Source of the DNA: Lineus longissimus
Lineage: Eukaryota; Nemertea; Pilidiophora; Heteronemertea; Lineidae
NCBI RefSeq assembly: GCF_910592395.1
Contig: NC_088312.1
Location: 22,577,292-22,641,291, forward strand
Direction of reading: 5' to 3'
Length of the DNA stretch: 64,000 nucleotides
The position numbers and the translations under genes were made by a program. Position 1 is the stretch's first letter. Each line of letters starts with the position of its first letter. Shown piece after piece: positions 2,376-36,672 of the stretch. Below the pieces are notes generated by a model. It worked only from the letters and a program-made list of their open reading frames with translations, ran no database searches and was not told where the DNA came from.

Positions 2376-2937
2376 ATCCCATCCGAACTCCCTGCCGTTG
2401 CTCAGCATCCTCAACAAAAGAAAATGGTGGGAATACTGTTGATGATCTTGAGATGATATTTGACCGAATATAACCAATTTATGATCGATAATTATAAGTC
2501 TGCGTGCATCAGAAAAGTGTATAAAGATATTGTGCATTAGCAGAAACAGGTATTTGTTATAGTCTTGCCTTTGATTTTGTGTTTGGGCGTGTAAAGTGGC
2601 GGCGATTTGCGAAAAATTGCACGAGTTTAATTGTGGTGCTCTGTGGTGCACCCAGGTAGCGCTCGCAACTTAATAAAAAAACCGGTATTTCCCAATCCAG
2701 TACTCAACATCTGAACATATAGTCATGCCGTAACATGTCATGGCAGTGATGACTTTATGGGAATTTGTCAGGTATTCTGCAATTGTGCCATATAATGATG
2801 ATATTCATCGTTCTAGGCCTAATCGAATCGAAACTAATCCAATAAGTTTTGAGATGCGATTTTTGTTTACGACATACGTCAAGAAGAGTCATATTCTCTT
2901 TTTCAGGCTTCCGATAGATAACGTTGCTTGTAGTTAG

Positions 2938-3651
2938 ATGATGAAGGACAGCACAATGTCGGTTGCAGACACAGAAGAAGAATTTATGGCACCTCAGGTG
3001 TCGAGCCCTACTGATGATGAAGAGGAAGAGGTAGAGGAAAACAGCCCCTTTGAAAGTATGCAAACAGAGCTACACAGCAGGGGTGCAGAACTGACAAAGG
3101 CCTGGTCAAACTTGTTCAGTTTCATAACGAAATATCAAGCGGAACTTTTTGTTAAAGAGAACTCGGTTGAAATAGCAGAGAAGGAAATAGAGCAGAGAAA
3201 GAAGCAGCTTGCAGAAATGAAACCAGTGGTTGATGCTGGTAATGAGGAGATTACACAATTACAAGATGACATTCGAACGAAAGAAAGACAACTTCGTCAA
3301 GCACAGTCGCAACTTTCTGTCAAGGAGCGAATGTTACAACGGGTACAATCAGACCTGTCTTGTAATATGGAAATGTTAGAAAACTCTCGAAGTGAACTTT
3401 TAGGCAAACAAAATGAGATTATTCGATATAGGGGTGATCTAGAACGTATGAAATCTGAATTGACTATAAAACAAGAGCAAATACAAATCAAAGACAATTT
3501 GTTGAAGAAATTACAGAATCAACTCATGAAGGAGAATGCCGAATTGAGGGAACAGTTGGAACTTGAACGACGGGCGCTACAATTGGAGAAACAATCACAT
3601 GAGCTGACGAAAAGAACCCTGTCGTCGCAGAGTGGGGGTAGGAAGCGACCG
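2938..3651 (+). CDS. Constant exon A: acidic N-terminus plus long coiled coil
   Basis: Encodes 238 residues. The in-frame codon just before the first ATG is TAG (2935-2937), which fixes the upstream limit; a second ATG follows at once in a better context (A at -3). Residues about 20-37 are acidic (a DDEEEEVEE run). About 45-230 form a Glu/Gln/Lys/Leu-rich heptad-type coiled coil. The end is basic (GGRKRP), a possible nuclear localisation signal. The acceptor TCTCTTTTTCAG ends at 2906 and the donor CCG|GTAGGT is at 3651/3652, phase 0, matching the next exon. The coiled coil presumably dimerises the isoforms, the role BTB plays in lola. I recognise no closer named family. Confidence 0.85.
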
Positions 3652-3988
3652 GTAGGTGTTCATTTCTGGGCAAGTTCATGAGGAAGAGGCTACTACACCA
3701 GATTATGGTTTCTTCAAAAACTATTTTACCATGGTGCGAGTTTGGGCCTCGAAATCCCATTTAAATTCAAACCTGAGGAGGTTTGCTGTTCTCAAATTTG
3801 TGTCGAAAAGTGTCTGCACTGAAAATACAATGAAAGGTACATGTACATTGCAAAGATGTCTTGAAATCAAGCCTGATCTGCAGATTTGTGGTGGTCAATT
3901 CTACAAATCGATGCCAGGTTAACATCTATGGCAACACGTCGGTCTTCATTTCAGAAACCATTCACAATTTTCAACATTCATATTTCAG
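3652..3988 (+). other. Intron between constant exons A and B
   Basis: 337 bp, donor GTAGGT and acceptor TTCATATTTCAG. Reading-through frames in it are short. It keeps phase 0 on both sides. Confidence 0.75.
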
Positions 3989-4615
3989 AGAACGAGTGAA
4001 GGCCCTGCTGCTGTGATAGAAATTCCTGACTCGCCACCAACACTAGATCTTTCCGTTGAAGGAGATTTCGGACTCTCAAACATCATCTCATTGGCCGAAT
4101 CGCAGGCTATGGGAGAAGACTCTTCAGCGCAAACAAGACTTTCCTCGGGACACGATACATCCCGTATTTCAAACACCTCTCAGTCTTTCACAGATCATTC
4201 CAGCCGTTTACACCACATGCCAACCACGACCACTCCCTCCCAATGGGGTTTTTCAACCCCATCTAAAGTTGCCCCGTCTCCATCAAAGTTTATGGCGTCA
4301 CCCTCGATAACGCCTACACGGGCTTCTCTAACAAGTATTAATGACAATATTTCAATAACTGATACAGCTGCCATGACATCCAGTGATACATTTTTCCCCC
4401 TAAGTGTTTCTGAGGACGTTAAACCTGGTATTGACACTATGACATCTAGTATGCAAATGGACAGTGACAGTCAAGGCAATATGCCGACTATAAAACCAGG
4501 GACTCCTAGCTCAGGGACAAGTGATAGTAATCAAGGCCCAGTGCCAGTGTCGGGGCCGATACCAAGTCCAGCGATGTCACCAGGTGGCAGCACGGATGGG
4601 GGAGCAGACGGAAAG
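3989..4615 (+). CDS. Constant exon B: Ser/Thr/Pro-rich linker with a SUMO-interaction-like motif
   Basis: Encodes 209 residues in phase 0 (starts AGA ACG AGT, ends GGA AAG before donor GTAGGG). It is low-complexity and rich in Ser, Thr, Pro, Met and Gln, typical of a flexible or transactivation segment. Near its start AVIEIPDSPP has the hydrophobic core plus acidic/Ser tail of SUMO-interaction motifs. Several SP/TP sites (TPSK, SPSK, SPSI, TPTR) could be phosphorylated. Exon B ends in the same phase in which all finger exons begin, so it is the likely last constant exon, although a small extra exon in 4616-9574 is not excluded. Confidence 0.8.
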
Positions 4616-5662
4616 GTAGGGATCAGTTAATAAAACTTGTAGTAATCAACAGTGACAAAAGTCTCGTGATAGGAATGGTAGCTCAAACGATGGAGATGAA
4701 TTATGATTATATTGCTGTGAAACACAAAATGTTGGTTTGAGAATTGTCCATAAATCTATTATTTGACTTGAGATGACAAAATCTTGGTTGCCATTAAACA
4801 TCGGCTATAAAAGTTCAATTCACATAGTTGTCCATTGCTGATTAGATTCTAAAATGTGTGCCAGAACTCGTCATCGTAAAAACTGGTCTTGCAACTGTAG
4901 AATTTGGCAGTTCCTGATCAAATGCAAGGATACTGTCACAAACAATAACAGTAACAGATTGAGCAGACCCATGGATGGGTACTATAATCAAGAAAAGGTT
5001 GAGCCTGTTTTAGTCATTGCAGCGTATAGCACAAAATGTACCAGTTGGTCGTCCTCCATATGACATCTCTCTGAGCTGCTCTTCTCTGACACAAGGCTGA
5101 TGACACTAAGGGTTCAGAGTGCCTTGTCCACCACTAATCTCCACACTTTTTATCACCCAGAACTGTGCACAGCTGGTTCTGTTGTTTCGATTCTGATCCC
5201 AAGTTGTGGAGGTTTGTGGAATTCATGAATTGTTCAAATGTCGGTCTGGAGGTCATGCACTGCTTAGTGAGCAGATCTGAAATAATAATGACTTGAGGAG
5301 ATGACAGGCAGGTTTCTGTCATGGGCCTTTAGTTGATGATGTGGGCCATTCCCTATCATGGATGGAACTACATTCACTACAGAGATGTATCATGTACATA
5401 CAACATGATTATAGTCTGTACAGCCTCGAGGATCTGTAAACCTGATTGAAAACCTATCAATATTATTCACCTCCAGGTTAGCATTTGGGCACTTCTTACT
5501 TCAGAACACTTGAATAATCAGGATGGCATTTTCGTGTGAAGAAAACTTGATCCAGAATTCTGTGATGTCAAAAAAAGTTTTAAAAAGAAAACTGTCCTAT
5601 GATAATTTGCCTGTAACATTTTAATGTTTTTGAAAAGATTTTGCCGGCATTTGAGTATGAAT

Positions 5663-5880
5663 CAGTGGAGGATGTGCTTCTTGGAAGAATGTCGCAACCA
5701 GTATGACTCAGTGGAAGGCTGTGCTTTCTTGGAAGAATGTCGCAACCAGTATGACTCAGTGGAAGGCTGTGCTTTCTTGGAAGAATGTCGCAACCAGTAT
5801 GACTCAGTGGAAGGCTGTGCTTTCTTGGAAGAATGTCGCAACCAGTATGACTCAATGGAAGGCTGTGCTTTCTTGGAAAA
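5663..5880 (+). repeat. 48-bp tandem repeat, about 4.5 copies
   Basis: The unit begins TGTCGCAACCAGTATGACTC and ends CTTTCTTGGAAGAA. Because 48 is a multiple of three, open frames run through it on both strands with a 16-residue period. Copies are almost identical, so the array is young. No splice sites favour coding use. Confidence 0.85.
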
Positions 5881-6907
5881 GTCGCAACCAGTCTCAAACC
5901 TGTACACTGCCTCCAACCTGTAGACTGCCTCCACAGTAACAGGCTGTATTGGAAGTCATGACTTTGCTGAATCAGCCAAGCTGGACGACCAATCACTCAG
6001 ATTTTAAATGACAAAAGAGAGTCTCAGCAGTTCAAGTTGCTGGACCCAACCAATTATGACATACATTAACACTGACAAATGCATTGCAAATGCAGCCCAC
6101 AGAATGGATTCATGTGTTCTTGACTCGGGGATGCCAATTTGAATTTTCAGGTGTTTTTAGTAGTTTTTGGACCCGTCATTTTGAACCCAACAATTCCTTG
6201 ATTTAGCTAGACAACTCATCTTTGGTCACTTATCCTCTTGCCAAACTTCGAAAACCTGCTGTGCAGGAAATGCTCTCCCGATTTTCATATTGTGATAGTT
6301 GTGGTGCAGTGATGTTTTTTGATTGAACCTCATCACGAAGGGCAAGTCAGGTGTGGTGTACTAGAGTATAAAATTTGACCATCGTTTTTCTTGTTAACTA
6401 AGTACATGGTGCACCAGAGATGAGTTGTGATTTGCCACCACCACCATGGACATCTACTCTGAACTCATCATACACAACTTGGTTTCTGCTCTAAAATACA
6501 TGATTACTGAGTGTAACGAGCTAGACTTTCCAAATTCTATGTTGTAGTAAAATATACTCAACTTTTCACAGACGGGACTTGAGTTGGACTTCCTTAGTCT
6601 TTTAGGGAGTGAAAAAATGTTTTGACAACTTCTCGGGAGCCGGTGACAATTTGAACAAAGGGTGAGATTAACTTTTAAAATTAACATATTCATTGGTTTG
6701 TCCATGGTGGAGTTTAGAATATTGCTTTATAAAAATGTTTGCTGATTGTGGAAAATCCATTTTGAAATCAACAACTAAAACAGTTGAAAAAAGAAAATTT
6801 GAAATGGATTTTCTTTGTTCTTGAATTTAGCAAAACGCATTGGCAATTGTGGAGAAATCGAAGAGAATGACATCATATGATGACTTTGTGCATGGCTATG
6901 TCCAAAA

Positions 6908-7100
6908 ATGTGACTCGTCACAGCAAAACCAGGCGCATGTCGCACAGAAGATGAGCCTAAATGACACCAGGAGATAATGGAAGAAATTGATGTGCTCATA
7001 TTTCACAAAAGGCAGACAATAGAGAAATGAACAAACAGTCCGTCTCAACCTGCCAAGCTCAGAGCGACATGCACCTGGTTTTGCTGTGACGGATCACAAA
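6908..7100. mobile_element. Diverged copy of an inverted-repeat MITE
   Basis: Left end GTGACTCGTCACAGCAAAAC and right end TTTTGCTGTGACGGATCAC are inverted copies. The right half (CACAAAAGG...CAATAG.GAAATGAACAA...) clearly matches the arm of the perfect foldback at 20065-20293, so the two belong to one family. This copy is older. Confidence 0.7.
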
Positions 7101-7578
7101 TGTGTTTCTTGCACTGTCAGCCGGTAAGGGGGATTGATTGTTTTCTCACTAAAACAGACCTAAAGTAAAAGGATGCTGATCTTTTTCCCTGAGGAAATGA
7201 TGGTCTGCTCATTCAGGTTTTGTTCAGAATTGCCAGTGTTGTGTAAGTCAACATTTATGGTTTGATGGAACCCTTTAGAACTGCAGGACATAGGCCTAGA
7301 TTCTTCTCTATTTTGGTTAAGATCAAGTATTCTACTGCTTTTCAGTTCTTACTGTCTTCGATCGATTGTTGCGTATTTTTGTGGGAGCATAGAATTTGTT
7401 GAAGTAATTAGTGAAGCATGAAGGGTTGTGCCTTCTTGTGAAGTAGAAGCCCTTGCCGGGCTTTGAAAAATGAAAGCTGTATTCAGCTGTACCTAGGAGC
7501 AGGAAAAGTATTTGATTTAATATGAAATGCTGAAAAGTTGGAGGTTACTTGGTCTTTCCAGTTCAATTTCAGCAATAG

Positions 7579-8001
7579 GACACGGAAGAGGAAGAAGATC
7601 ATCCCCATTCACGTCATTCTTCAATCAGCAGTTTAGGAATCCTATCATTGTGTTGGAAGTTCTATTTTCTGACGCTATTGACTAGTTGGGCAAGGATCAC
7701 CGTTTTGCGAGTTGTGGCAATCATCGCTGCTCTCTGCTTCCACTTGTGTCCAAGACAGGTTGAGACAAGTCCTCCGCTGCTAAACTTACGAGTTACCTCT
7801 AGATTTAGCTTCTTCCTTTCTAATGACAGTGACATCTTCCAAAACTGGGATCCTTGCATGACTGTTGACCTCGTGAAGACGGTAAAACCTGTTGTGGACT
7901 TTATGACCAACGTACGAATCAATTGCCAGCATCAATATGAATCTCAGGTCGGTTGGCCTGTGTCCTTTCTGTCTGATCGCACCATGGAAGTTCTCCACTG
8001 A
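7579..8001 (+). other. Doubtful open frame, possible non-finger terminal exon
   Basis: An AG at 7577-7578 is followed in phase 0 by an acidic start (DTEEEEDHPHSRHSS), then a hydrophobic stretch, running open to TGA at 7999-8001 (140 residues). It has no zinc finger or known domain. It could be a finger-less alternative C-terminus, as some lola isoforms have, or a chance frame. The acceptor context is mediocre. Confidence 0.2.
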
Positions 8002-9574: not shown

Positions 9575-9841
9575 TTGTCAGAGATTTCTTGATGACCTCG
9601 TTGGCTAAGGCACATCCATCACATCGCTAGACCTCTCCAGTGCCCCATGTGCAGCATGACGTTTATACATCGATATCGCAGCCAAAATCACATCGTGACA
9701 CAACATGGCATCGATTGCTTGGCTGACATTCCTGACGAGAGTTACAGATGTTCTATATGCGGGCTTGGATTTACTCAAAGCCGCTTCACTCCTAGGCTTT
9801 GTCAGTTTGTTGCAGACAGCAAAATTCAGCACTTTCAGTAG
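9575..9841 (+). pseudogene. T0: decayed finger exon related to T1
   Basis: At 9641 a perfect finger reads C-P-M-C, 12 residues, H-x4-H. It is followed by the same kind of long inter-finger spacer as between T1 fingers 2 and 3, then CSICGLGFTQS, after which the His pair is lost. Upstream, a frame-shifted remnant of a first finger ends RHIHHIARPLQ before the intact one. It aligns with the whole T1 exon, so it looks like a tandem duplicate that has decayed. A short functional exon from a weak acceptor at 9640 (CTCTCCAG) is possible, as it too would be phase 0. Confidence 0.6.
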
Positions 9842-10049
9842 GCCCTCTGCCAGAATGACTTGTTCAATGACATGGCCTTTGCAGGATGTTGAAAATCTTG
9901 AGTGTGAACTGTTTGCTCGTTATGAGTTCCGTTTCACTTCCAGTGCAGTCATGGTGGTACAACAACTCAGCTAGTTCCTTGAGTCTGGACACCGTTAAGG
10001 GACATAGCGCTGCAGTTACTACATCAAATCCACTTCTTTATAATTGCAG

Positions 10050-10454
10050 TTTGCGAGCAGAATCCAGCAACGTTTTGAGAGTCAAGATGTATCATATCAT
10101 AACATCTGTCGCCCTCGTGGGCGTCCTGCGAAGCCAAACTCCTTGAAAACATTGGCACACCAGTGTGAGCTCTGTGGACGTTCTTTCAAACAAAAGTGTA
10201 CCCTGACCCGACATATGCGCATCCACACAGGAGAGAAACCATACGATTGTCCAAGCTGCCCGAAAAGCTTCCGGCATCGATTCAGTCGGCATGAACACAT
10301 GCTGAGCGTCCATGGAAACTTGGTCGAGGTCGTGGATGAGTGTTACAAGTGTGATATCTGTGGGCGTGGGTTCTTCCAGAGAGGTTCTCTCATGCTTCAT
10401 CGGGCATCGCACGCACCCAGAGATTCAGCTGTGGACAAACTAAGCTTTCCTTGA
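10050..10454 (+). CDS. T1: alternative terminal exon, 3 C2H2 fingers
   Basis: The acceptor TTTATAATTGCAG ends at 10049 and the exon opens in phase 0 with FASRIQQRFES; 134 residues to TGA. Before the fingers, RPRGRPAKP is an AT-hook-like core (R-G-R-P), which could add minor-groove contact. Finger helices (-1 to 6): QKCTLTR, HRFSRHE (H-x4-H), QRGSLML. Fingers 1-2 are joined by a consensus HTGEKPY linker; fingers 2-3 by a long acidic spacer (GNLVEVVDE). Such a gap usually means the third finger acts separately. Confidence 0.85.
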   Translation, partial: FASRIQQRFESQDVSYHNICRPRGRPAKPNSLKTLAHQCELCGRSFKQKCTLTRHMRIHTGEKPYDCPSCPKSFRHRFSRHEHMLSVHGNLVEVVDECYKCDICGRGFFQRGSLMLHRASHAPRDSAVDKLSFP

Positions 10455-11060: not shown

Positions 11061-11402
11061 CTTGGATTCCTTGGTTGGTCAAAGTCCCCTCTGATGTCCC
11101 AGGAAAACTTAACATCCAATGCGAAGCCCTATCCATGTCTCTTGTGCCCGCTGGTGTGCACCTCCGCTGGTAATCTCAAGACGCACTTGAGGAGCCACTC
11201 GGGAGAACGTCCCTTTAAGTGCCCTGTTTGTCGTCAGGGGTTTGCGCGGAAGGACGCTATGAAGACACATATTCGCGTCCATACTGGGGAAAGGCCGTAT
11301 GTTTGTCAGATCTGTGACCGCTCGTTCACTCAGCTGGGTCCACTGCGACGCCATCTAATGGCAATGCATCACACTTTAAAAAACGTGAAGTTCCCAGTCT
11401 GA
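11061..11402 (+). CDS. T2: alternative terminal exon, 3 C2H2 fingers
   Basis: The exon opens in phase 0 (LGFLGWSKSPL) and encodes 113 residues to TGA. Helices: SAGNLKT, RKDAMKT, QLGPLRR; linkers HSGERPF and HTGERPY. In finger 1 the usual Phe position is Cys (CLLCPLVC). Finger 3 has H-x4-H, as in most last fingers here. Finger 3 (xLGxLRRH) resembles those of T3 and T6, placing T2 in a proximal subfamily. An AATAAA at 11606, about 200 bases after the stop, could be its poly(A) signal. Confidence 0.87.
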   Translation, partial: LGFLGWSKSPLMSQENLTSNAKPYPCLLCPLVCTSAGNLKTHLRSHSGERPFKCPVCRQGFARKDAMKTHIRVHTGERPYVCQICDRSFTQLGPLRRHLMAMHHTLKNVKFPV

Positions 11403-11682
11403 AGGCGAGGTTTCAAAATGGGTAACATACAGCCAATGTGTTTGAGACTCAGTCAGGACCACTTATCTGTCTCGATTTAATTTTTCCAAAAAACAAAATT
11501 TGGTCAATTGTGTGCCGAGCTGTACCATATTCTGTGAAATAGTCTTGTACAGGTAGTAAGTGTGCATTCATTTGTGTTCATGTTGTTTAATCTTGCAGAC
11601 TAGGAAATAAAGTCAGCTCATCACAGCATGTCGTCTTACGTAATTCTTTCACTTACGTAGCATCCCTATTCTTCTACTGCAG

Positions 11683-12021
11683 GCTGTCCATGGGAGGGTC
11701 ATGCAACAATCACAAGTCGTCACCCCGGGAATTTACGACGCTTTTAACATGAAATGCCAAATCTGTGGAGTAATAGCGACAACGCCTTCAAACTTGAAGG
11801 TTCACATGAGACGCCATACTGGAGAGAAACCATATTGCTGTCAAATATGTAGTAGAGCATTTGCTCATTCCAGTGCCCTAAAAGTACACCAACGTATCCA
11901 TACTGGAGAAAGACCATATGGGTGTCGCTACTGTGATAAGGGGTTCACAACCCTTGGGGCTCTGAAACAGCACCAGTGGTTGGTTCATAACGTTGTTGTA
12001 ACTTTCCGAGACCAACACTGA
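11683..12021 (+). CDS. T3: alternative terminal exon, 3 C2H2 fingers
   Basis: The acceptor ATTCTTCTACTGCAG ends at 11682; phase 0 start AVHGRVMQQS; 112 residues. Helices: TPSNLKV, HSSALKV, TLGALKQ; linkers HTGEKPY and HTGERPY. Finger 1 lacks the Phe (CGVIATTPS), as do finger 1 of T6 and T8. Closest relatives are T6 and T4 (FAH-type second finger). A decayed copy of its last finger follows at 12086. Confidence 0.87.
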   Translation, partial: AVHGRVMQQSQVVTPGIYDAFNMKCQICGVIATTPSNLKVHMRRHTGEKPYCCQICSRAFAHSSALKVHQRIHTGERPYGCRYCDKGFTTLGALKQHQWLVHNVVVTFRDQH

Positions 12022-12085
12022 ATCGTTCTGTAACTGTACCTCTGGGCTCTTATCTGTACCAGAGAAAGCTGCGTGTCCTGCACAA

Positions 12086-12199
12086 CTTATTCATAGTGGT
12101 GAAGGACCACATGGATGTCCCTTTGATAAGGGATTCACAATCCTCGAGACTCGAGAACAACCCCTATGGTCAGCTCATAATGTTGTTCAACCTTTAAAG
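12086..12199 (+). pseudogene. Relic of a T3-type third finger
   Basis: Nucleotides align with the end of T3 (linker plus finger 3). The decayed frame reads HSGEGPHG, then C-P-F-D-KGFTILE, then SAHNVVQ. The second zinc Cys and first His are gone, but KGFT and the HNVV tail survive. It is best explained as a duplicate of T3 that lost function. Confidence 0.75.
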
Positions 12200-12427
12200 A
12201 AGAATGCTTCTTAGAAAATGTTCTCTTGTATTGATATGTGCTGCCTGCTGTTACACTGGAGGGCCTATTATTGTGATGGGGAAAGTTGTACTACTTTGCC
12301 TCACATATAACTAGGATGTCCTGATCTGCAAAAGCAATCATATTGCATGTTGTGTGCTGTCATAAAGCCTGCTCGTACTAAAACATTCCTGCAAGTCCAC
12401 TCATTTGGGTCGTTTGTATATTTACAG

Positions 12428-12694
12428 GTCGGACAATTCTCCAGGTTTCAATCTAGCAGACGATCAAACACCAACGGATTCGAGTGTCACTCCTGCGGAA
12501 AGTTATTCTCGAGGCAGTGGAATATGAAAGTTCATTTGAGGCAACATACGGGAGAAAAACCATTTCAGTGTCGCATTTGTGGTGCGGCGTTTGCGCATAA
12601 TTGCAGTCTGAAAACTCACATGTATCAACAGCATCTGGAGTGGCAGGATAAGGAGAGGTCGTCACAGACTGGTGACTTGGGGAGTAAAATGTGA
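12428..12694 (+). CDS. T4: alternative terminal exon, 2 C2H2 fingers
   Basis: The acceptor GTATATTTACAG ends at 12427; phase 0 start [14 protein letters not shown]; 88 residues to TGA. Helices: RQWNMKV and HNCSLKT (H-x4-H), joined by HTGEKPF. A basic SSRRSNTN lead-in precedes finger 1. The second finger ([11 protein letters not shown]) is close to the FAH fingers of T3 and T6; a third finger like theirs appears to have been lost or never present. Two fingers alone bind DNA weakly, so dimerisation through exon A would matter. Confidence 0.85.
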
Positions 12695-13651: not shown

Positions 13652-13978
13652 TACATGATGATCAGTGGTCAAGGTGTAATTCCGAGACGAGCTTACTCAA
13701 CCCAATTCAAGTGCCATATCTGTGCGAACAATTTCTCCTCCAAAAATGCCGTCACTCTGCATATGAAGTGCCACACGGGAGAACGTTCGTTTACTTGCAC
13801 GTTTTGTGGTCGGATGTTTGCACTCAAACAGACTCTCCAACGCCACGAACTCGGCCACACGGGAGAAAGACCCCATGTTTGCAGAGTGTGCAAGAAAGAC
13901 TTCCGGCGTTTGAGTACTATGAAGAATCACATAATGTGTCGCCACCTGACATCTTGGCATACTCCGAAGAGTGACTGA
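13652..13978 (+). CDS. T5: alternative terminal exon, 3 C2H2 fingers
   Basis: The acceptor TTTTCTCTTTTACAG ends at 13651; phase 0 start YMMISGQGV; 108 residues to TGA. Helices: SKNAVTL, LKQTLQR, RLSTMKN (last finger H-x4-H). Linkers HTGERSF and HTGERPH depart from the consensus at the aromatic position. A piggyBac MITE ends only 45 bp upstream of the exon, so the branch point must lie in that small interval or inside the element. Confidence 0.86.
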   Translation, partial: YMMISGQGVIPRRAYSTQFKCHICANNFSSKNAVTLHMKCHTGERSFTCTFCGRMFALKQTLQRHELGHTGERPHVCRVCKKDFRRLSTMKNHIMCRHLTSWHTPKSD

Positions 13979-14370: not shown

Positions 14371-14694
14371 TATCCTATCGGTCAAAGCAGTCCTAGCAAG
14401 TGTTGGCAACAAATGTCAAGTCTCCAATGCAGTACCTGTGGCCATTTGCCGACGACCACACAGAGTCTGCAAGTCCACATGCAACGTCATACAGGAGAAC
14501 GCCCCTATAAATGTCCTACGTGCGGTCAGACGTTTGCCCATAATAGCCCTATGAAGACGCACCATCGTATCCATACAGGAGAAAGACCATATTCTTGTAA
14601 CATATGTCAGCGTAATTTTGTCACTCTGGGTCATCGGCGTAGCCATCAAGTTTCTGTGCACGGAGGACTTCTTCTGAAATGGAATCGGCCATAA
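14371..14694 (+). CDS. T6: alternative terminal exon, 3 C2H2 fingers
   Basis: Phase 0 start YPIGQSSPSKCWQQ; 107 residues to TAA. Helices: TTQSLQV, HNSPMKT, TLGHRRS (last finger H-x4-H). Linkers HTGERPY twice. Finger 1 lacks the Phe (CGHLPTTTQ) just as in T3; fingers 2 and 3 also pair with T3, so the two are paralogues. The acceptor resembles those of T2 and T5 (CTTTTACAG). Confidence 0.87.
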   Translation, partial: YPIGQSSPSKCWQQMSSLQCSTCGHLPTTTQSLQVHMQRHTGERPYKCPTCGQTFAHNSPMKTHHRIHTGERPYSCNICQRNFVTLGHRRSHQVSVHGGLLLKWNRP

Positions 14695-17314: not shown

Positions 17315-17500
17315 ATTCCTGACCACAGATCTGAACGCCGTCATAAAAGATGCACTTATTGTAAAAAGTGGTATTCTTCTGGAGCGCTCACTCGCCATAT
17401 CAGATTGCACACCGGTGAACGACCATTTAAATGTTCCATCTGTAGTGTTGGCTTTGCTCAAAATGTGTCACTTCAGTTGCATATGAGAAAACACTGGTAG
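17315..17500 (+). CDS. T7: alternative terminal exon, 2 C2H2 fingers
   Basis: Phase 0 start IPDHRSERRHKR; 61 residues, one of the shortest. Finger 1 (CTYCKKWYSSGALTRH) has 11 instead of 12 residues between the second Cys and first His, one short of consensus, so its fold may be altered. Finger 2 helix QNVSLQL is standard. Linker HTGERPF. The last codons CAC TGG TAG are the first bases of the 47-bp array that follows, so the stop codon lies in the repeat; a longer ancestral C-terminus may have been cut off. Confidence 0.8.
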   Translation: MPDHRSERRHKRCTYCKKWYSSGALTRHIRLHTGERPFKCSICSVGFAQNVSLQLHMRKHW

Positions 17501-18129: not shown

Positions 18130-18444
18130 GCATCGTGGAAAAGGGCAGAAAACTCATGTAATCCTCATACTTGTGGCTACTGTGGGAAGGTTCTCTCAAC
18201 ATCTGGGGCGCTCAAAGTTCACATACGGTTACACACCGGGGAATGCCCTTTCAAATGTTCCATTTGTACTAAGGGGTTTCCTCAGAAGGGGATGCTAGAG
18301 GCTCATGTCCGAGCACACACTGGTCAGAAACCATTTGTGTGTGACGAATGTGATGCAAGGTTTACCCAGCGGAGGTCGCTACGACGTCATATTTTCACAA
18401 AACATCCAAAAGTTGAAGAAGTCGGCCAGTTTGCTTTGAGCTGA
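18130..18444 (+). CDS. T8: alternative terminal exon, 3 C2H2 fingers
   Basis: Phase 0 start [13 protein letters not shown]; 104 residues to TGA. Helices: TSGALKV, QKGMLEA, QRRSLRR (last H-x4-H). Linkers HTGECPF and HTGQKPF are both off-consensus. In finger 1 Leu replaces the core Phe (CGKVLSTSG). Finger 1 helix SGALxxH is shared with T7, suggesting common descent with a one-residue deletion in T7. Confidence 0.86.
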
Positions 18445-19367: not shown

Positions 19368-19670
19368 TTGCTGAGAGACAGGCAGAGACTGATCAGGACG
19401 TGTGCTCAGCAGAATGGGACATTCATATGCTGTGTTTGTGGAGTGATTCTTGGTCATCGTAACAGTCTTATCCAACACATCCTACGCCATACTGGAGAAC
19501 GGCCATTTGCCTGTCCTTTCTGTCCGAAACGATTCCGACAGAGAACGAACTTGAACCGCCATAGGGTTGCTTTTCATACATTCGTCTGTAGATACTGTGG
19601 GAAAAAGTTTGTGGAGACACAACATTGGGAGTCGCATGAAGCCGAACGTGCTTGTCAAATCATGGGCTGA
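19368..19670 (+). CDS. T9: alternative terminal exon, 2 C2H2 fingers plus a C2HC finger
   Basis: Phase 0 start LLRDRQRLIRTCAQQ; 100 residues to TGA. Helices: HRNSLIQ, QRTNLNR (H-x4-H), ETQHWES. The third finger ends H-x5-C (HEAERAC) instead of His, a C2HC variant, and follows finger 2 directly (FHTFVCRYC) without a TGE linker. C2HC fingers often serve protein contact, so this isoform may differ in partner choice. Confidence 0.85.
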   Translation: MLRDRQRLIRTCAQQNGTFICCVCGVILGHRNSLIQHILRHTGERPFACPFCPKRFRQRTNLNRHRVAFHTFVCRYCGKKFVETQHWESHEAERACQIMG

Positions 19671-20819: not shown

Positions 20820-21146
20820 TTTCGAGGGATGACAAGGCAGCAGATTGAAGGCGTCACCTTCGGGGCGGACTTCTCACCAATTGAGTCGATCACATGCAAC
20901 ATCTGCCAGAACGTCTCGCTGAGTCGCTACGCGCACAGACGGCACATGGTCAGCCATACTGGAGAGTTTGTCTGCGCGGAGTGTGGGAAGCATTTCTCGA
21001 CCAAACAGAGTCTTCAAGTTCACACGCGGCTTCATCGGAATGCAAAACCGTACAAGTGTGACTTTTGTGGGAAGGATTTTAATCAGAAGATCCAGCTGAA
21101 TACACACATTATTGGTCATGCTAAGGGGAGGAATGATTTTCCTTGA
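20820..21146 (+). CDS. T10: alternative terminal exon, 3 C2H2 fingers
   Basis: The acceptor TTGTTCTCTTGTAG ends at 20819 (TAG-type, weaker than CAG); phase 0 start FRGMTRQQIEG; 108 residues to TGA. Helices: SRYAHRR, TKQSLQV, QKIQLNT. Finger 1 is atypical (CNICQNVSLSRYAHRRH, no core Phe). The linker between fingers 1 and 2 is short (HTGEFVC), that between 2 and 3 is HRNAKPYKC. AATAAA at 21553 and 21658 lie downstream. Most of the preceding intron is a foldback and the 34-bp array. Confidence 0.85.
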   Translation, partial: FRGMTRQQIEGVTFGADFSPIESITCNICQNVSLSRYAHRRHMVSHTGEFVCAECGKHFSTKQSLQVHTRLHRNAKPYKCDFCGKDFNQKIQLNTHIIGHAKGRNDFP

Positions 21147-21816: not shown

Positions 21817-22116
<300 letters not shown>

Positions 22117-22501: not shown

Positions 22502-22756
22502 ATGTGTGGCATGTTCGTATCCCCAAGTCTCGTGAAACCACCACGATCTAATCCTGGCCAAGCTGGTTACAAGCCTTTCAAATGTGAATTCTGTGAGAAA
22601 AGATTTCGGCAGAAAAGTAACATGCAGCGACATGTGCGGCTGCACACGGGAGAAAAACCGTTTGGATGCGATTTTTGTGGGAAACGTTTTAGTGATCAGT
22701 CGAACTTTAGAATTCACGTGTTCAAGCATAAGGCGGCTCAAGTAGATTTCTCCTAG
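22502..22756 (+). CDS. T12: alternative terminal exon, 2 C2H2 fingers
   Basis: Exon starts at the base after CAG with ATG TGT GGC; phase 0; 84 residues to TAG. Helices QKSNMQR and DQSNFRI, linker HTGEKPF. The DQS-type last finger links it to T16-T20. The exon could start translation itself, but the tight match with the splice phase favours use as a terminal exon. AATAAA at 22911 is a likely poly(A) signal. Confidence 0.86.
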   Translation: MCGMFVSPSLVKPPRSNPGQAGYKPFKCEFCEKRFRQKSNMQRHVRLHTGEKPFGCDFCGKRFSDQSNFRIHVFKHKAAQVDFS

Positions 22757-23408: not shown

Positions 23409-23714
23409 ATCGATCACACGTCGGAAGTCTTCCAGGGTAACTTGGGAAAAGCAAAATTCAAACACTGTCCACAGTGCAGCAAAATTTTCCCGGGGAAGAA
23501 ATTACTTGAAGCACACCTGCGCGTCCACTCCGGAGAGAAACCCTTTGAATGTGTCATTTGTGGGAAGGCGTTCTCGCAAAAAGGCAATTTGCAGAGACAT
23601 GAAAGAGTGCATACAGGGGAAAGACCTTTTGTGTGTGAGATTTGTGGGAAAAGTTACAAGGAAAAGGCTGGGTTGAAAGTCCACGAGTTTACCAATCATT
23701 TTCTTGATGGATAG
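23409..23714 (+). CDS. T13: alternative terminal exon, 3 C2H2 fingers
   Basis: The acceptor CCATTTTCTACTTTCAG ends at 23408; phase 0 start [11 protein letters not shown]; 101 residues to TAG. There is no ATG before the first finger, so it cannot be a stand-alone gene without splicing. Helices: GKKLLEA, QKGNLQR, EKAGLKV (H-x4-H). Linkers HSGEKPF and HTGERPF. Finger 2 is a textbook finger. Confidence 0.88.
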
Positions 23715-24661: not shown

Positions 24662-26080
24662 GATTCGGATTCGGATGTCATATATCCTGTTCAGAGTGAG
24701 GAGATGTCTTGGTCTGGCAGTGACTCCGAATCTGAAGTATTCAGGTGTGATCTGTGTGACTTGGTGGTCGCTTCCAACAGAGCATTGCGGATGCACCGAC
24801 GCAGCAAACATGCCGATGAAGAGCTATATGTTGCTTGCAGGGTCTGTGGTGACAGGTTTAGACATGTGACTGATCTTGCCAGACACGAGCTCTCACACGA
24901 GGAGCCAATGAAGTGTTTGCTTTGCGACGAAGAGTTCTGGACTGTCTACAAATACCGCTGTCATGTCCTGCGCCATCGGAACCAGGCATTGAATAGCGAA
25001 TCCTATAATCGACGAAAATACAGTTGTGATACGTGTGGCAAATTATTTCACACGAAACATTCGCTACAACAACATATTGCTACTCACTCGACTGATAAAC
25101 CGTTCGTATGCCCCGACTGTAGTGCAGTATTCCGGACGAAGATTGGTTTGAAGTGTCACATTGGCCGACAGTGTTATTCGCGGCTGGGCAGGTCAAGTGC
25201 CAATGTTTTGCAACAGGATGAGTGTTACTTTTGCCACAAGTTGTTTGGGACGAGATTACTCATGAAGGAGCACTTGGCAACGCATACTGATGAAAATCCG
25301 GAGCAATGTCCGATATGTCACAAAACGTTCAGTATGAAATCGAATCGAAACAAACACTTGAATACTCATGTGGCCGTTATAGTATTCAGGTGTGACGCGT
25401 GTCTGATAAGTTTTAGAACAAAAAGTCATTTGCAAAAACATATGGCGACTGAACATCATGATTTGGATAAAACAACTGTACCTTCTGAAACAACTGGTGA
25501 GGGGGCACGGGGGACCTCAACGACAGAAGGTGAATGCAAAGATAAGCAGACGCCTTCAATAAAACAAGAGGATTCGTCAGATGTTGGGCCTAAATCTGGA
25601 GATAGCGTCACACATGTGGATGAAGTTGGCCTGGAAACATCGGGAGGTGATGATGGAATGCCAGTACCAGGGCCGTCTGCAAAAAAAGACTCGGTGGAAA
25701 GAAGGAAAACGCTCCCTGAGATAACGTGGAAAATTTACGAATGTGACTTCTGCCGTTACGCGTTCATCTCGCAGAAACTTCTGGATGCGCATCGCAGGAA
25801 ACACACGGGTGAAAAACCGTACTTGTGTTCGATTTGTGGGAAGGGATATCAGAGTAGTAGCAGTCTTTCAAAACATATTGCACTCCACCCCTTTGTGGAA
25901 AAACCTAAAAATACCATATGTCCTGTTTGTAAAAAGCGTTTTAAGAGTTGGTGTTTTTTGCGTGACCATTTACGCGTTCACTCGGGGGAGAGACCATTTG
26001 TTTGTGAGACGTGTGGAAAGGGGTTTATGAGTATGGATGTCCTGAAAAAGCACAGAGCTACACACAAGAAAAAGGAATGA
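24662..26080 (+). CDS. T14: long terminal exon, 12 zinc fingers in 8+4 clusters
   Basis: Phase 0 start DSDSDVIYPVQSEE; 472 residues to TGA. Fingers 1-8 helices: SNRALRM, HVTDLAR, TVYKYRC, TKHSLQQ, TKIGLKC, TRLLMKE, MKSNRNK, TKSHLQK; fingers 9-12: SQKLLDA, SSSSLSK, SWCFLRD, SMDVLKK. Finger 5 is C2HC (HIGRQC). Fingers 1-8 mostly lack TGEKP linkers; 9-10 and 11-12 have them. The roughly 110-residue acidic spacer holds SIKQEDS, a match to the SUMO consensus (I-K-x-E). It is far larger than its neighbours and may be an older or independently recruited exon. AATAAA at 26361. Confidence 0.9.
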   Translation, partial: DSDSDVIYPVQSEEMSWSGSDSESEVFRCDLCDLVVASNRALRMHRRSKHADEELYVACRVCGDRFRHVTDLARHELSHEEPMKCLLCDEEFWTVYKYRCHVLRHRNQALNSESYNRRKYSCDTCGKLFHTKHSLQQHIATHSTDKPFVCPDCSAVFRTKIGLKCHIGRQCYSRLGRSSANVLQQDECYFCHKLFGTRLLMKEHLATHTDENPEQCPICHKTFSMKSNRNKHLNTHVAVIVFRCDACLISFRTKSHLQKHMATEHHDLDKTTVPSETTGEGARGTSTTEGECKDKQTPSIKQEDSSDVGPKSGDSVTHVDEVGLETSGGDDGMPVPGPSAKKDSVERRKTLPEITWKIYECDFCRYAFISQKLLDAHRRKHTGEKPYLCSICGKGYQSSSSLSKHIALHPFVEKPKNTICPVCKKRFKSWCFLRDHLRVHSGERPFVCETCGKGFMSMDVLKKHRATHKKKE

Positions 26081-26625: not shown

Positions 26626-27555
26626 ACTTTTGAATCTGGTGCTGAAAAGGGAAATACATTTGAAGGCATCCCAGAGAGCAAGGTGGCTGAATCAAAGTTC
26701 GCTGATAAGATCTGCCCTCATTGTGACAAGGTCTTCAATGCCACGTATAATATTAAGCGGCACATAAGATGCATGCACGGAGAAGACAAATTATATAAAT
26801 GTAGCAAGTGCCCATGGACATTTGTCTTTAGACAAAGGTTTGATGCGCACATTCAGAAACATACTGAGAGAAATGTGGCAAAAATTCATGTGTGTAATGT
26901 GTGTGAGAGAGCCTTTGAATCTAAGTGGAGCCTCGAAACGCATTATCGTATTCACACTGGTGATATGCCATATCGGTGTACGGTGTGTGCCAAAGCATTC
27001 ACCCAGGCTGGTCAGTTGAAGGGACATATGTTAACGCATTCAGATGAACGGCCCTTTAAATGTGTCGTTTGTAACCATGGCAGCAAGGAGAAACAGTCTT
27101 TAGAAAGTCACATCCGAACACACAAGGACTTGTCTCCGGCCATGAAGGCATTGGTTTTGAATCAGAGCCTGTTTGATTCGGGCAAGCAGAAGAGGCCCCC
27201 AAAGGGTGGGAAACATTGTGAGTGCAACATTTGCCACAAAGTTTTTAGCGCTCGGTATAAATTGGATGCTCACATTCAAAGCCACACTGGTGAAAAACCA
27301 TTTCTTTGTTCCGTGTGTGGCAATGCCTACCGGCACAGAGGTGGTCTTTGGAAGCATATGATGGCCCACGCCGGGCAGAAACCGGCTAAGACCATACATT
27401 GTGAGGTTTGTAATAAAGAGTTCAGGGATGCGACAGACTGTCAGAACCACTTGCGGGTCCACACAGGAGAAAGACCATTTGTTTGTCATATTTGTGGCAA
27501 GAAGTTTCGTTTTCAGTCGAACCTGAGAAGCCACTTGGCAACACACAATAAATGA
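26626..27555 (+). CDS. T15: long terminal exon, 9 zinc fingers
   Basis: The acceptor CTATTCTCATTTCAG ends at 26625; phase 0 start TFESGAEKGNTFEG; 309 residues to TGA. Helices: ATYNIKR, FRQRFDA, SKWSLET, QAGQLKG, EKQSLES, ARYKLDA, HRGGLWK, DATDCQN, FQSNLRS. Fingers 1-5 and 6-9 are separated by a basic spacer (GKQKRPPKGGK). TGE/TGD linkers occur after fingers 3, 6 and 8. In finger 5 Ser replaces the core Phe. The last codons AAT AAA TGA contain an AATAAA overlapping the stop. With T14 it forms the middle pair of long exons in the array. Confidence 0.9.
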   Translation, partial: TFESGAEKGNTFEGIPESKVAESKFADKICPHCDKVFNATYNIKRHIRCMHGEDKLYKCSKCPWTFVFRQRFDAHIQKHTERNVAKIHVCNVCERAFESKWSLETHYRIHTGDMPYRCTVCAKAFTQAGQLKGHMLTHSDERPFKCVVCNHGSKEKQSLESHIRTHKDLSPAMKALVLNQSLFDSGKQKRPPKGGKHCECNICHKVFSARYKLDAHIQSHTGEKPFLCSVCGNAYRHRGGLWKHMMAHAGQKPAKTIHCEVCNKEFRDATDCQNHLRVHTGERPFVCHICGKKFRFQSNLRSHLATHNK

Positions 27556-31364: not shown

Positions 31365-31670
31365 ATGTCTTGGTCGAGCGGCGGGCAATCTATGAGTGTG
31401 CCTGATTTGTATAAGTGCGTTTTCTGCGGTGAAACATTCCTAACGATAGAGGTGCTAGAACGGCACACAAGACGACACCAATATCGTCTCAAATGTGAAT
31501 TCTGTGAAAAACCATTTACGACACGCGGCAATCTCAAACGGCATATACGCATCCATACAGGAGAGAAGCCATTTGAATGCAAGATATGTGGGAAGGCATT
31601 TTCTGATCAATCTGCTTTCAAAATGCACGAGGTCCGGCATCATTTAAAGACATTTACGGACAGACATTGA
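31365..31670 (+). CDS. T16: alternative terminal exon, 3 C2H2 fingers
   Basis: The acceptor CTTTCTAATTTCAG ends at 31364; the exon opens with ATG TCT TGG in phase 0; 101 residues to TGA. Helices: TIEVLER, TRGNLKR, DQSAFKM. The linker between fingers 1 and 2 is degenerate (HQYRLKC); the second is HTGEKPF. First of the distal group (T16-T20) sharing a DxSxFxx last finger and the CTAAT acceptor. Confidence 0.88.
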   Translation: MSWSSGGQSMSVPDLYKCVFCGETFLTIEVLERHTRRHQYRLKCEFCEKPFTTRGNLKRHIRIHTGEKPFECKICGKAFSDQSAFKMHEVRHHLKTFTDRH

Positions 31671-32275: not shown

Positions 32276-32635
32276 ATGTTGTCTGCTACCAGTTTATCTG
32301 AATCACAAACCAATGATCCCGAGAAGACTTCCGATATTACCTCAGCCCCAAAGGGACCAGCACAAGTTTCATCAACTCATAATTGCAGTTATTGTGGGAA
32401 GCAAAGCAGTACCAAGAGGGATTTGGCACGCCATATTCGTACCCACACGGGTGAAAAGCCATTCAAATGTTCCTACTGTGGCAAAGGCTTCAAACAGAAA
32501 CCACACGTAACTGTGCATGAGAGGATTCATACAGGAGAGAAGCCATATAAATGTCCTATTTGTGAAAGGAGGTTTCTTGACTCTTCTGCCTTGAGAAGGC
32601 ACATGGTCACTCACTTGAGATCACACTGTCATTGA
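32276..32635 (+). CDS. T17: alternative terminal exon, 3 C2H2 fingers
   Basis: Opens with ATG TTG TCT in phase 0; 119 residues to TGA. A Ser/Thr-rich 35-residue lead precedes the fingers. Helices: TKRDLAR, QKPHVTV, DSSALRR; linkers HTGEKPF and HTGEKPY. In finger 1 Ser replaces the core Phe (CGKQSSTK). AATAAA at 32654, 18 bases after the stop, indicates a very short 3' UTR. A decayed finger follows at 32757. Confidence 0.88.
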   Translation: MLSATSLSESQTNDPEKTSDITSAPKGPAQVSSTHNCSYCGKQSSTKRDLARHIRTHTGEKPFKCSYCGKGFKQKPHVTVHERIHTGEKPYKCPICERRFLDSSALRRHMVTHLRSHCH

Positions 32636-32756: not shown

Positions 32757-32868
32757 CCACACAGGTGAAAATCATTCCAGTATTCATTTTGTGGAAAGGC
32801 ATTGAGTCAGAAACATATGCATGAAAACATCCACACCAGAGAGAGACCATTTGAATCTGACTCTGTCA
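32757..32868 (+). pseudogene. Relic finger between T17 and T18
   Basis: CCACACAGGTGAAAA (linker), then after a 1-bp frameshift FQYSFCGKALSQK, a short deletion, then HMHENIHTRERPFES. The first zinc Cys is Tyr, and spacing to the His pair is shortened. It resembles finger 2 and linker of T17-T19, so it is a decayed duplicate of that group. Confidence 0.75.
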
Positions 32869-33194: not shown

Positions 33195-33503
33195 ATGATA
33201 ATCCCCTTTACACATTCGGATGAATACGGCATCCGTCGCTCCCTTTACAAGTGTACCAAGTGCGGAAAGATATGTAACGACAAAACACGATTGGCCGAAC
33301 ACGTCCGGACACACACTGGTGAAAAGCCGTACAAGTGTTCGTATTGTGAGAAAGCGTTCGTTCAGAAAGGGACGCTAAAAACTCATGAACGTATTCACAC
33401 AGGAGAGAAACCCTACACATGTCTCATCTGTGGAAAGGCTTTCTCCGATAGTTCGTACTTTCGCCGTCATCAACTTGGTCATATGTCAGATGGAAATAAA
33501 TAG
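33195..33503 (+). CDS. T18: alternative terminal exon, 3 C2H2 fingers
   Basis: Opens ATG ATA ATC in phase 0; 102 residues to TAG. Helices: DKTRLAE, QKGTLKT, DSSYFRR; both linkers HTGEKPY. Finger 1 has Cys in place of the core Phe (CGKICNDK). The end GGA AAT AAA TAG contains AATAAA overlapping the stop. Very close to T19 in every finger and in the acceptor, a recent duplicate. Confidence 0.9.
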   Translation: MIIPFTHSDEYGIRRSLYKCTKCGKICNDKTRLAEHVRTHTGEKPYKCSYCEKAFVQKGTLKTHERIHTGEKPYTCLICGKAFSDSSYFRRHQLGHMSDGNK

Positions 33504-33977: not shown

Positions 33978-34280
33978 CGATTTCCCCCATCAGATGTATT
34001 GAGTCATTTGAGAGGATATCGTCACAAATGTCATTTCTGTGGACGACTTTTTGCTGACAATACGAGATTGACCCACCACGTCCGTACCCATACTGGTGAA
34101 AGACCATTCAAGTGTTCGTTCTGTGGGAAAAGTTTTATTCAGAAAGGGGCACTGAAAACTCATGAGAGGATTCACACAGGAGAAAAACCATTTCAATGTC
34201 AAATTTGTGGGAAGGAATTTTCTGATGGTTCATACTTCAGAAAACACAAACTTTTTCATTTGGCGGACGGTGAACGATAG
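33978..34280 (+). CDS. T19: alternative terminal exon, 3 C2H2 fingers
   Basis: Phase 0 start RFPPSDVLSHLRG; 100 residues to TAG. Helices: DNTRLTH, QKGALKT, DGSYFRK; linkers HTGERPF and HTGEKPF. Paralogue of T18 with changes at contact positions mainly in fingers 1 and 3 (helix positions 1 and 6), so the two probably prefer related but not identical sites. Confidence 0.9.
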   Translation, partial: RFPPSDVLSHLRGYRHKCHFCGRLFADNTRLTHHVRTHTGERPFKCSFCGKSFIQKGALKTHERIHTGEKPFQCQICGKEFSDGSYFRKHKLFHLADGER

Positions 34281-34652: not shown

Positions 34653-34946
34653 ATGATGTACTCATCATATTCTGCTGGTCAGTTGGGAGATCCTCGGCCC
34701 GTTTGTGATTTCTGCGGCCGGCACTTCAGGGATAAATCAAGACTAAGAGAGCACATCAGGGTCCACACCGGTGAAAAGCCATTTGGGTGCAAAGTCTGCG
34801 GTAAAGCTTTTCGTCTGAAAGAGCAGCTAAAAGCGCATGAAAGGATTCACACAGGAGAGAAACCATACGCTTGTCACATTTGTGGGAAAGCATTTGCTGA
34901 TCTATCTTCCTGTCGGAAGCATAAACTTGGTCATCAGATGCAATGA
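34653..34946 (+). CDS. T20: alternative terminal exon, 3 C2H2 fingers
   Basis: Opens ATG ATG TAC in phase 0; 97 residues to TGA. Helices: DKSRLRE, LKEQLKA, DLSSCRK; linkers HTGEKPF and HTGEKPY. Third member of the T18-T20 cluster, more diverged in finger 2. AATAAA at 35355 may end this transcript. Confidence 0.9.
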   Translation: MMYSSYSAGQLGDPRPVCDFCGRHFRDKSRLREHIRVHTGEKPFGCKVCGKAFRLKEQLKAHERIHTGEKPYACHICGKAFADLSSCRKHKLGHQMQ

Positions 34947-35434: not shown

Positions 35435-35617
35435 AATAAGGGAGTGATCAGACCCCTAACCAGGAGAGCCTTCAACATCTGTGCACCCAAACATCTGGAA
35501 TCAGAATGGCACTACACTCAACAGTCTTTCACAACCAACAATGGATACCCTACAGATGTTGTCGAGAAAACCATCAGATGCACCATCGATAACCATATGA
35601 GACAGGACAGGCCGTAG
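35435..35617 (+). mobile_element. Dead retroelement fragment, possibly Penelope-like
   Basis: The frame reads NKGVIRPLTRRAFNIC, then a run ending NNGYPTDVVEKTIRC, then a stop at 35615. The GVI..L..RA..IC ... NGYP order is typical of the region after the RT core in Penelope-like and related elements. Family assignment is tentative; the fragment is about 60 residues. Confidence 0.45.
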
Positions 35618-35811
35618 AAATCACCTGCATATAGATCATCACCCACTCCCTTATATAGTGCTTCACACAAAATCTAAAGACTAACATGCAGTTAGAAGAA
35701 GACTATAAGAGAAAACTAACTTAGGCTTTTCAGATCAAGAGACACCAGCCATCTCTGAACAGACGAGGGCCTTTTCATACCAACAGCTTACAATTATATA
35801 ATAAACTGTTA

Positions 35812-35976
35812 GGGCCAAATTCATAAAGGGCGTTTAGCTTAAAACAGCGATTAACTACTGAATAGACAGATTCAGGTCCTTCATGTAAATCTTCGCAGAA
35901 TATGAATAGGCCTCGAAACTGATTAGAGAGAAGTTACACGCGTCTAACCCTTAAACGCCCTTTACGAATTTGGCCC
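35812..35976. mobile_element. Harbinger-type MITE with TTA target duplication
   Basis: Terminal inverted repeats GGGCCAAATTCATAAAGGGC and, at the right, the complementary GCCCTTTACGAATTTGGCCC (one mismatch), flanked by TTA at 35809-35811 and 35977-35979. Length 165 bp. TTA duplication and GGGCC ends fit PIF/Harbinger. Confidence 0.85.
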
Positions 35977-36372
35977 TTAGTGTATTTAGTAGTTCTCTGT
36001 GTGTCAGTTGCTAATCCCTTCTATGTGTGACATAACACACTTTACATGTTCTTGAGACTATGGATCATTCAGACACTTGACAAGGCACAGTGAAGACTGT
36101 TGGAAACATCTTGTACAAGGACTATTAGAAAGTGATCCAAACCCTTCTAAAAATGACATTCAAGGATAGTGTTGACAGAAAATAATTAATATCTAAGAGT
36201 ATTTGCATATGAAAATCATTCAACTTATTTGACTCTTCAGCATATCAAATAAACATTTAATAACCAAATACATTTTCAGATTTCTGTGTTTGTGTAGGTG
36301 TGTGTGTCAGCTATTAACTTTGTAACTATGTATTTTGTAAGACTTTAAAATGTTTTCATTTTCTATTTTCAG

Positions 36373-36672
36373 TTTGTCTATGATAGTCTATACCTTGAAC
36401 CAAACTTCCGAAACTTCCGAAGTCATAAATGTGCCATGTGTCGGCAGCCATTTGCAACAACAGCGTTGCTCAAGACCCACCTGCGTACTCATGGCGGGGA
36501 AATGCCTTTCGCTTGTAAATTCTGCGGGAAAGGTTTTGCTAAAAAGTGGAATATGACGATACATGAGCGGATACATACTCATGAAAAGCCATTTGAGTGT
36601 CATATCTGTGGCAAGAGGTTTAACCATGTGTCGCATAAGAAGACACATTTATTGACGCACATGAATAAATAG
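36373..36672 (+). CDS. T21: last recognised terminal exon, 3 C2H2 fingers
   Basis: Phase 0 start FVYDSLYLEPNFRN; 99 residues to TAG. No ATG precedes finger 1 in the exon, so splicing is required. Helices: TTALLKT, KKWNMTI, HVSHKKT; linkers HGGEMPF and HTHEKPF are off-consensus. The end ATG AAT AAA TAG again overlaps AATAAA with the stop; a further AATAAA is at 37529. Confidence 0.88.
   Translation, partial: FVYDSLYLEPNFRNFRSHKCAMCRQPFATTALLKTHLRTHGGEMPFACKFCGKGFAKKWNMTIHERIHTHEKPFECHICGKRFNHVSHKKTHLLTHMNK

Follow-up and report, generated by a model that had tools for sequence, protein, structure and literature searches.

The mod(mdg4) locus of Drosophila joins a constant 5' half to many variable 3' exons, and combines a BTB domain with FLYWCH-type ends, trans-splicing and exons on both strands. 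The KRAB zinc-finger proteins of tetrapods come from separate genes, each of which has a single finger array, while in the clustered protocadherins arrayed alternative exons share a single constant part. In Drosophila lola, the common 5' exons can be followed by any of 20 or more alternative terminal parts, and most of these have zinc fingers (PMC1947980). Here we analyze a locus of comparable design in a 64,000-nucleotide stretch of chromosome 5 (C5) of the nemertean ribbon worm Lineus longissimus (Lineidae; C5:22577292-22641291; the window), which was set against the whole 391,118,348-bp genome. The window very probably holds a lola-like locus, in which a single constant half, encoded by exons A and B, is joined by splicing to one of about 20 alternative DNA-binding ends.

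Sequence and NCBI gene models agree that, as in lola, constant 5' exons are followed by alternative terminal exons in one phase with C2H2 fingers as variable ends. Unlike lola, which has a BTB domain and is a single locus, the Lineus family has a coiled coil without a Pfam domain over the cut-off and occupies about 41 loci; a Pfam scan of exons A and B found no BTB domain in the constant half, so the locus works like lola and is not, by the BTB test, a lola homologue. It shares with mod(mdg4) a constant 5' half with many variable 3' exons, but its ends are mostly C2H2 and lie on one strand. It resembles the KRAB zinc-finger clusters in size, fast turnover and the pairing of a putative repressor-type N-terminus with C2H2 ends; unlike them it has no KRAB box (Pfam scan of exons A and B), and its diversity comes from alternative terminal exons. 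The order of the clustered protocadherins, with variable first exons and a 3' constant part, is reversed. Known host-transposase fusion genes find a likeness in two family models, P0020 and P0026, which likewise join a host half to a Tc5/CENP-B-type DNA-binding domain, except that the transposase domain is here one alternative end beside finger ends. In octopods, C2H2 expansions are reported to comprise genes on several chromosomes with a few clusters (PMC9795677); the Lineus family is, like these, a clustered C2H2 expansion in a lophotrochozoan, and a shared constant half goes unmentioned for octopods in the accessible text of that report. No described counterpart was noticed in a survey of titles and abstract openings, with subscription papers and preprints outside its scope.

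The constant half is encoded by two exons on the plus strand, both open reading frames throughout. Exon A (2907..3651), preceded by an acceptor AG at 2905-2906 and a short 5' untranslated region, has its coding sequence at 2938-3651 (238 residues), comprising a conserved N-terminal helix and a long coiled coil, and ends at 3651 in the donor CCG/GTAGGT. A 337-bp intron (3652..3988), also present in NCBI models P0008-P0010, separates it from exon B (3989..4615), a Ser/Thr/Pro-rich linker of 209 residues that includes VIEIPDSPPTLDLS and SDTFFPLSV and ends at 4615 in the donor AAAG/GTAGGG. Together the exons encode 447 residues, and both donors are in phase 0, as an earlier note on this stretch had stated. 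An acceptor-like AG, judged by eye, lies 5' of the exon A ATG in most of 19 paralogues. The exon B donor AAAG/GT, sought in phase 0, is present in 19 of the 20 halves retrieved; in the twentieth, L036, exon B extends to the end of the retrieved stretch.

Downstream of exon B, and again on the plus strand, lie the terminal exons, whose fingers were confirmed as C2H2 by pattern search and Pfam scan; no finger was found on the minus strand of the window. Three fingers are encoded by T1 (10050..10454, 134 residues; junction present in P0009), T2 (11061..11402, 113), T3 (11683..12021, 112), T5 (13652..13978, 108), T6 (14371..14694, 107; with a rival phase-1 AG of near-equal score at 14333), T8 (18130..18444, 104; junction present in P0008), T9 (19368..19670, 100), T10 (20820..21146, 108), T13 (23409..23714, 101, entirely without Met), T16 (31365..31670, 101), T17 (32276..32635, 119), T18 (33195..33503, 102), T19 (33978..34280, 100, without Met), T20 (34653..34946, 97) and T21 (36373..36672, 99, without Met ahead of the fingers). 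Two are encoded by T4 (12428..12694, 88 residues), T7 (17315..17500, 61) and T12 (22502..22756, 84), while T14 (24662..26080, 472 residues; junction present in P0010) and T15 (26626..27555, 309) have 12 and nine fingers by pattern. The earlier note had listed 21 finger exons, each with an AG acceptor, a phase-0 opening and its own stop, and these features are found in all 21. Its list needs correction at T11 (21817..22002), which is broken by a nonsense codon within finger 2 and followed in the same frame by a third finger at 22033-22098, and at T7, which is cut short where its 3' end adjoins a 47-bp minisatellite; to it are added three plus-strand relics, a decayed finger exon at 9614..9778 and decayed fingers at 12083..12187 and 32769..32861. 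The window thus contains 19 apparently intact exons, one truncated, one broken and three relics. Nine of the 21 (T1, T4, T7, T8, T9, T13, T15, T19 and T21) have no Met between the acceptor and the first canonical finger, a feature already remarked on for T13 and T21. Large minisatellites lie inside the introns, at 5654-5892 (48 bp x 5), 14814-16928 (54 bp x 39), 17512-17885 (47 bp x 8, the one adjoining T7) and 20290-20766 (34 bp x 14).

A protein search that scored the best ~7990 candidates returned 64 proteins, 63 of which are NCBI models of L. longissimus (62 on chromosome 5, one on chromosome 11). P0008 (representing a cluster of eight members), P0009 and P0010 consist of the window's 447-residue constant half followed by exactly T8, T1 and T14, implying the junctions 4615 to 18130, 4615 to 10050 and 4615 to 24662; these computed isoform models support the proposal, made in the earlier note, of one constant half with alternative finger ends. 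The constant half of one of the seven arrays analyzed (the window and six upstream) is carried by 16 of the 64 models checked, and in 15 of these 16 the variable part begins at the predicted acceptor, the sixteenth beginning one codon later. The predicted stop is also matched in 12 of the 16, a further one differs only in that one codon, and the remaining three (P0018, P0032 and P0033) continue by further splicing. The commonest border between constant and variable parts has DGK as the last constant residues. In P0020 (half L037, C5 ~11.60 Mb) and P0026 (half L036, C5 ~11.40 Mb) a transposase helix-turn-helix DNA-binding end of the Tc5/CENP-B type replaces the fingers; the half of P0026 also occurs in P0024 and P0025, which places a transposase-type end at a locus that also has finger ends. 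Three other models, P0061, P0067 and P0068, combine the constant half with long ends in which no finger was found by pattern, and no DNA-binding Pfam domain was found in P0061 and P0068 by Pfam scan or in P0067 by listing and pattern. The automatic names within the family range over sal-like, Krueppel-like, KRAB/SCAN-like and EGFR-substrate-like; KRAB or SCAN in some isoform names is taken to be best-hit naming.

The splice signals were assessed with acceptor matrices. When the matrix was trained on the other 20 acceptors, the listed acceptor ranked best for 20 of the 21 exons, the exception being T6, where the phase-1 AG at 14333 scores 10.2 against 10.1, a margin of 0.1 bit. A matrix built from the window's 21 acceptors alone placed the best site in phase 0 in 88 of the 93 finger frames of the 200 kb upstream. 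This exceeds chance, since phase-0 AGs make up 411 of the 942 AGs in the corresponding stretches of 112 frames (the 93 upstream and 19 from the window, T7 and T11 having fewer than two fingers by pattern). As a small control, four long-frame finger loci elsewhere (L002, L003, L007 and L008) had the best acceptor in phase 0 in two cases. The acceptor consensus contains a branch-site-like TTTCTAnTTTCAG. Seven of the 112 frames had no accepted phase-0 acceptor and were dropped, leaving 105 accepted exons, of which 94 hold two or three fingers and 60 have no Met before the first finger; the first codon is ATN in 43 (ATG 20, ATC 10, ATA 8, ATT 5). These exons avoid donor hexamers: two strong ones were observed against 18.6 (sd 4.1) expected from a synonymous codon shuffle with the protein fixed, compared with 25 observed and 28.9 expected on the reverse complement. 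Codon periodicity from the acceptor onward was also considered as a signal and is absent over the first 36 nt (mismatch 0.50, 0.53 and 0.53 by codon position).

About 41 loci, this one included, share the constant half, and they have multiplied almost wholly within one chromosome. Searching the genome with exon A gave 43 rows, 41 of them on C5 (two being pieces of one half, hence 40 halves), one on chromosome 11 (C11) and one on chromosome 1, the last a fragment of 33 residues with an internal stop that was dropped; exon B gave 23 rows, 22 on C5 and one on C11. The 200 kb upstream of the window contain six further A+B halves, with exon A 64-78% identical, and the 93 frames of at least two fingers; every one of these frames lies 3' of, and on the same strand as, a half. 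This extends to an array on the minus strand, whose 34 accepted exons follow a half of that strand. In none of the six arrays was there an antisense frame with at least two fingers. Two Pfam zinc-finger searches, limited to the best 150 of 3920 and the best 150 of 2646 candidates, gave 69 and 98 rows on C5, which merge into 137 distinct finger places; these counts are lower bounds. For all 137, a half on the same strand lies no more than 47.5 kb to the 5' side. With the strands flipped, this is true of none within 50 kb and of 28 within 80 kb, and random positions gave a mean of 3.5 of 69 and a maximum of 13. In a third, overlapping sample (T18 as query), 83 of the 84 listed C5 rows stayed inside the 50-kb limit, and the remaining one was at 50.5 kb. 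At least one finger place of the merged sample follows 28 of the 40 C5 halves. The C11 copy has its own array of five finger frames in 3 kb, with the best acceptor in phase 0 in four, and L049, a half whose long open frame could have marked an intronless retrocopy, resembles an ordinary two-exon half. Relatives were found only among L. longissimus proteins and JGI-sourced contigs, in protein searches that required shared 5-residue words and all but the first of which were limited to scoring the best ~7990 candidates, such that distant relatives in other phyla could be missed. One of these, the JGI protein P0070, reads GEGKVGIK across the border of exon B, where read-through in the window gives DGKVGIS; this likeness suggests that the exon B donor is conserved in another organism.

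Several further features of the genome were recorded. Five pairs of constant halves on C5 stand head to head, 1.3-3.7 kb apart, as if divergent promoters were shared (22474829-/22477365+, 9217934-/9219223+, 6735558-/6737068+, 6973226-/6974646+ and 11346099-/11349769+). At C11:503564-557961 there are a few short finger frames (119-164 residues) with no exon-A half found nearby, which may belong to a further array whose half is more remote. A cluster of long-frame zinc-finger genes (686-1176 residues) at C14:13.26-13.34 Mb is an expansion of a different kind. Within the window, a retroelement remnant with RNase H and a zf-RVT match under the cut-off lies at 38743-39228, and two minus-strand frames with CUB domains lie at 54986-60903.

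Alignment of 17 exon-A proteins gave 51 invariant columns. AlphaFold2 predicts helices at residues 37-97 and 102-232 of exon A, with a mean predicted local distance difference test score of 83 and a predicted template modelling score of 0.36, in keeping with the coiled-coil-type N-terminus that the earlier note had ascribed to the constant half. At an E-value of 0.01, Pfam gave three weak matches for exon A, all under the cut-off (Cast, ATG14 and DUF745), and none for exon B; searches for the coiled coil among solved structures and named families gave nothing beyond the weak matches that coiled coils typically produce. In exon B we read VIEIPDSPPTLDLS as a putative motif pair, in which a presumed SUMO-interacting motif adjoins a CtBP-type xDLS motif. 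When the window half is aligned with five diverse halves of 38-55% identity to it, no invariant run in the protein is longer than VIEIPDSPP, and a D and an S after it are invariant too. Among 65 family proteins of at least 300 residues, the VIEI-type pattern, a hydrophobic core flanked by acidic or Ser residues, is present in 57 and a loose xD(L/M)S pattern in 60 (one printed match lying within the coil), with PTLDLS in 44 and the canonical PLDLS in only five. A remote half shows only VIVIEDDE at this block, and one group of five models retains only PLDLS.

The gene structure and its alternative ends are well supported, and what follows on regulation, dimerization and biological role is inference. 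A single transcription unit would start from a promoter located 5' of 2907. Its pre-mRNA would carry exons A and B, and the donor at 4615 would be spliced in cis to just one alternative terminal exon out of about 20, each of which would bring its own stop and its own 3' end. All products would share the N-terminal helix and a coiled coil of ~130 residues, through which they may pair with themselves or with one another, together with a linker that is most conserved at VIEIPDSPPTLDLS and could act in repression through SUMO or CtBP. They would differ in the DNA-binding end, mostly two or three C2H2 fingers, with 9 and 12 at two exons.

The finger exons are under purifying selection, with a ratio of nonsynonymous to synonymous divergence (dN/dS) of 0.43 over 19 independent exon pairs, counting pairs with at most 0.62 synonymous differences per site. 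By codon class the ratio is 0.28 for structural, 0.42 for inter-finger linker, 0.68 for contact and 0.80 for N-terminal codons. Arrays c and d, which stand head to head, are collinear (nine reciprocal best exon pairs, rho 0.92), as are array b and the window (four pairs, rho 1.0); the other five of the seven array pairs, among 21, with at least three reciprocal best pairs gave rho 0.8, 0.5, 0.5, 0.4 and -1.0 from three or four pairs each. From their collinearity, c and d at least look like duplicates of a whole locus. Exons A and B of c and d are 98% identical (dS 0.04-0.05, dN 0.002), and their intron and 5' flank are unalignable. In L030/L031 and five other pairs of C5 halves, exons A and B have 67-98% DNA identity (A 89-98%), whereas most of the intron between them and of the 5' flank defies alignment. 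Homology was largely bounded by exons in all six close pairs tested, with an extra alignable block further upstream in L033/L038 and one of 70 bp downstream in L030/L031, and homogenization limited to exons is strongest in the head-to-head pair C5:22474829/22477365. Exon-limited gene conversion would be the simplest account of how the constant exons are kept alike. The terminal exons are mixed in this respect: similarity between the last exons of c and d continues into the intron, and that between E000 and E021 is confined to the exon.

A number of observations weigh against the lola-like reading. Only three of the 21 window junctions are represented in the models read, the NCBI isoforms are computed, and the junctions are predicted from sequence and models. 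Junctions between finger exons, which the earlier note had counted against its own proposal, are absent from the window's three models and occur once elsewhere, in P0033, which joins two finger exons serially; two other models at other loci extend beyond the predicted stop via further splicing. The best acceptor is out of phase in five of the 93 held-out frames. One of these, at 22377791, is the second half of the two-exon variable end in P0033, so at least one phase exception is a real second exon. Polyadenylation signals help little: AATAAA occurs 18 times in sense and six in antisense 200-400 nt past the stops, but 50 and 46 times over 0-800 nt, and as proof of 3' ends they are weak. Twelve of the 40 C5 halves have no finger place in the sample. 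DNA-contact residues vary at 65 of 100 positions, against 73 of 125 for other exposed finger residues (p 0.34); positive selection at the contacts is therefore unsupported, as they are no more variable than other exposed finger positions.

Two accounts of what the isoforms do are compatible with this gene structure. KRAB zinc-finger proteins carry out genome defence in tetrapods, and the finger ends of Lineus could likewise recognize transposons, with the constant half recruiting a SUMO/CtBP repressor complex; this is possible, though short of probable. It would suit a large family that is apparently restricted to one lineage and in which some exons decay and others are newly duplicated, the putative repression-like motifs of exon B, the transposase-type DNA-binding ends of P0020 and P0026, and the higher dN/dS of N-terminal (0.80) and contact (0.68) codons relative to structural ones (0.28). 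However, contact residues show no excess of variation over other exposed finger sites, the pooled codon classes all have dN/dS below 1, and just two or three fingers are held by 94 of the 105 exons. The isoforms might instead act in development, for example in the nervous system, with the mix of ends setting regulatory identity, a role that we consider conceivable without thinking it probable. The gene design is that of lola, for which PMC1947980 points to developmental regulation of several isoforms, and the fingers are under purifying selection; yet about 41 loci with turnover are unlike a single lola gene, and the same paper has most lola isoforms occurring in all neurons examined.

Other accounts concern how the terminal exons are joined or expressed. 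It is improbable that each has a promoter of its own and that its transcript is linked to constant-half RNA by trans-splicing, a route reported for part of lola. Lola uses both cis- and trans-splicing (PMC1947980) and the intron to T21 would span up to ~32 kb, but nearly all sampled finger places lie 3' of, and on the same strand as, a half, a layout that has no need for trans-splicing, and neither the minus strand of the window nor the antisense strand of the six upstream arrays (frames of at least two fingers) yielded fingers. That the exons are independent small finger genes, with their own promoters and starts, behind a coiled-coil gene by chance is scarcely credible: an ATG stands at the acceptor in 20 of 105 exons, but it is part of the ATN first-codon pattern (43 of 105), 60 of 105 have no Met ahead of the first finger, the phase bias, strand concordance and NCBI models are all contrary, the idea is refuted for T1, T8 and T14 if those models are right, and it is rejected, together with a pseudogene reading, on the evidence of phase, strand, dN/dS and donor avoidance.

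One constant half spliced to alternative ends may thus be the unit of a wider system. We tentatively, and with more doubt than belief, picture a private coiled-coil/SUMO-CtBP adaptor, present at about 41 loci on essentially one chromosome and kept alike by exon-limited conversion, whose hundreds of terminal exons are born, diversify and die, and capture transposase domains, with cross-pairing creating a combinatorial set of repressors. If true, this set would match the KRAB zinc-finger proteins in scale, by means of alternative splicing instead of separate genes. Lineages differ in how they assemble large zinc-finger sets. Here a splicing design of the lola type, built on an unrelated constant half, would drive the growth of a family beyond the insects, and the automatic gene names conceal that this family is coherent. 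The locus offers a clean setting for two questions: how a single donor selects one terminal exon out of about 20, and whether sets of fast-evolving fingers converge on the control of transposons.

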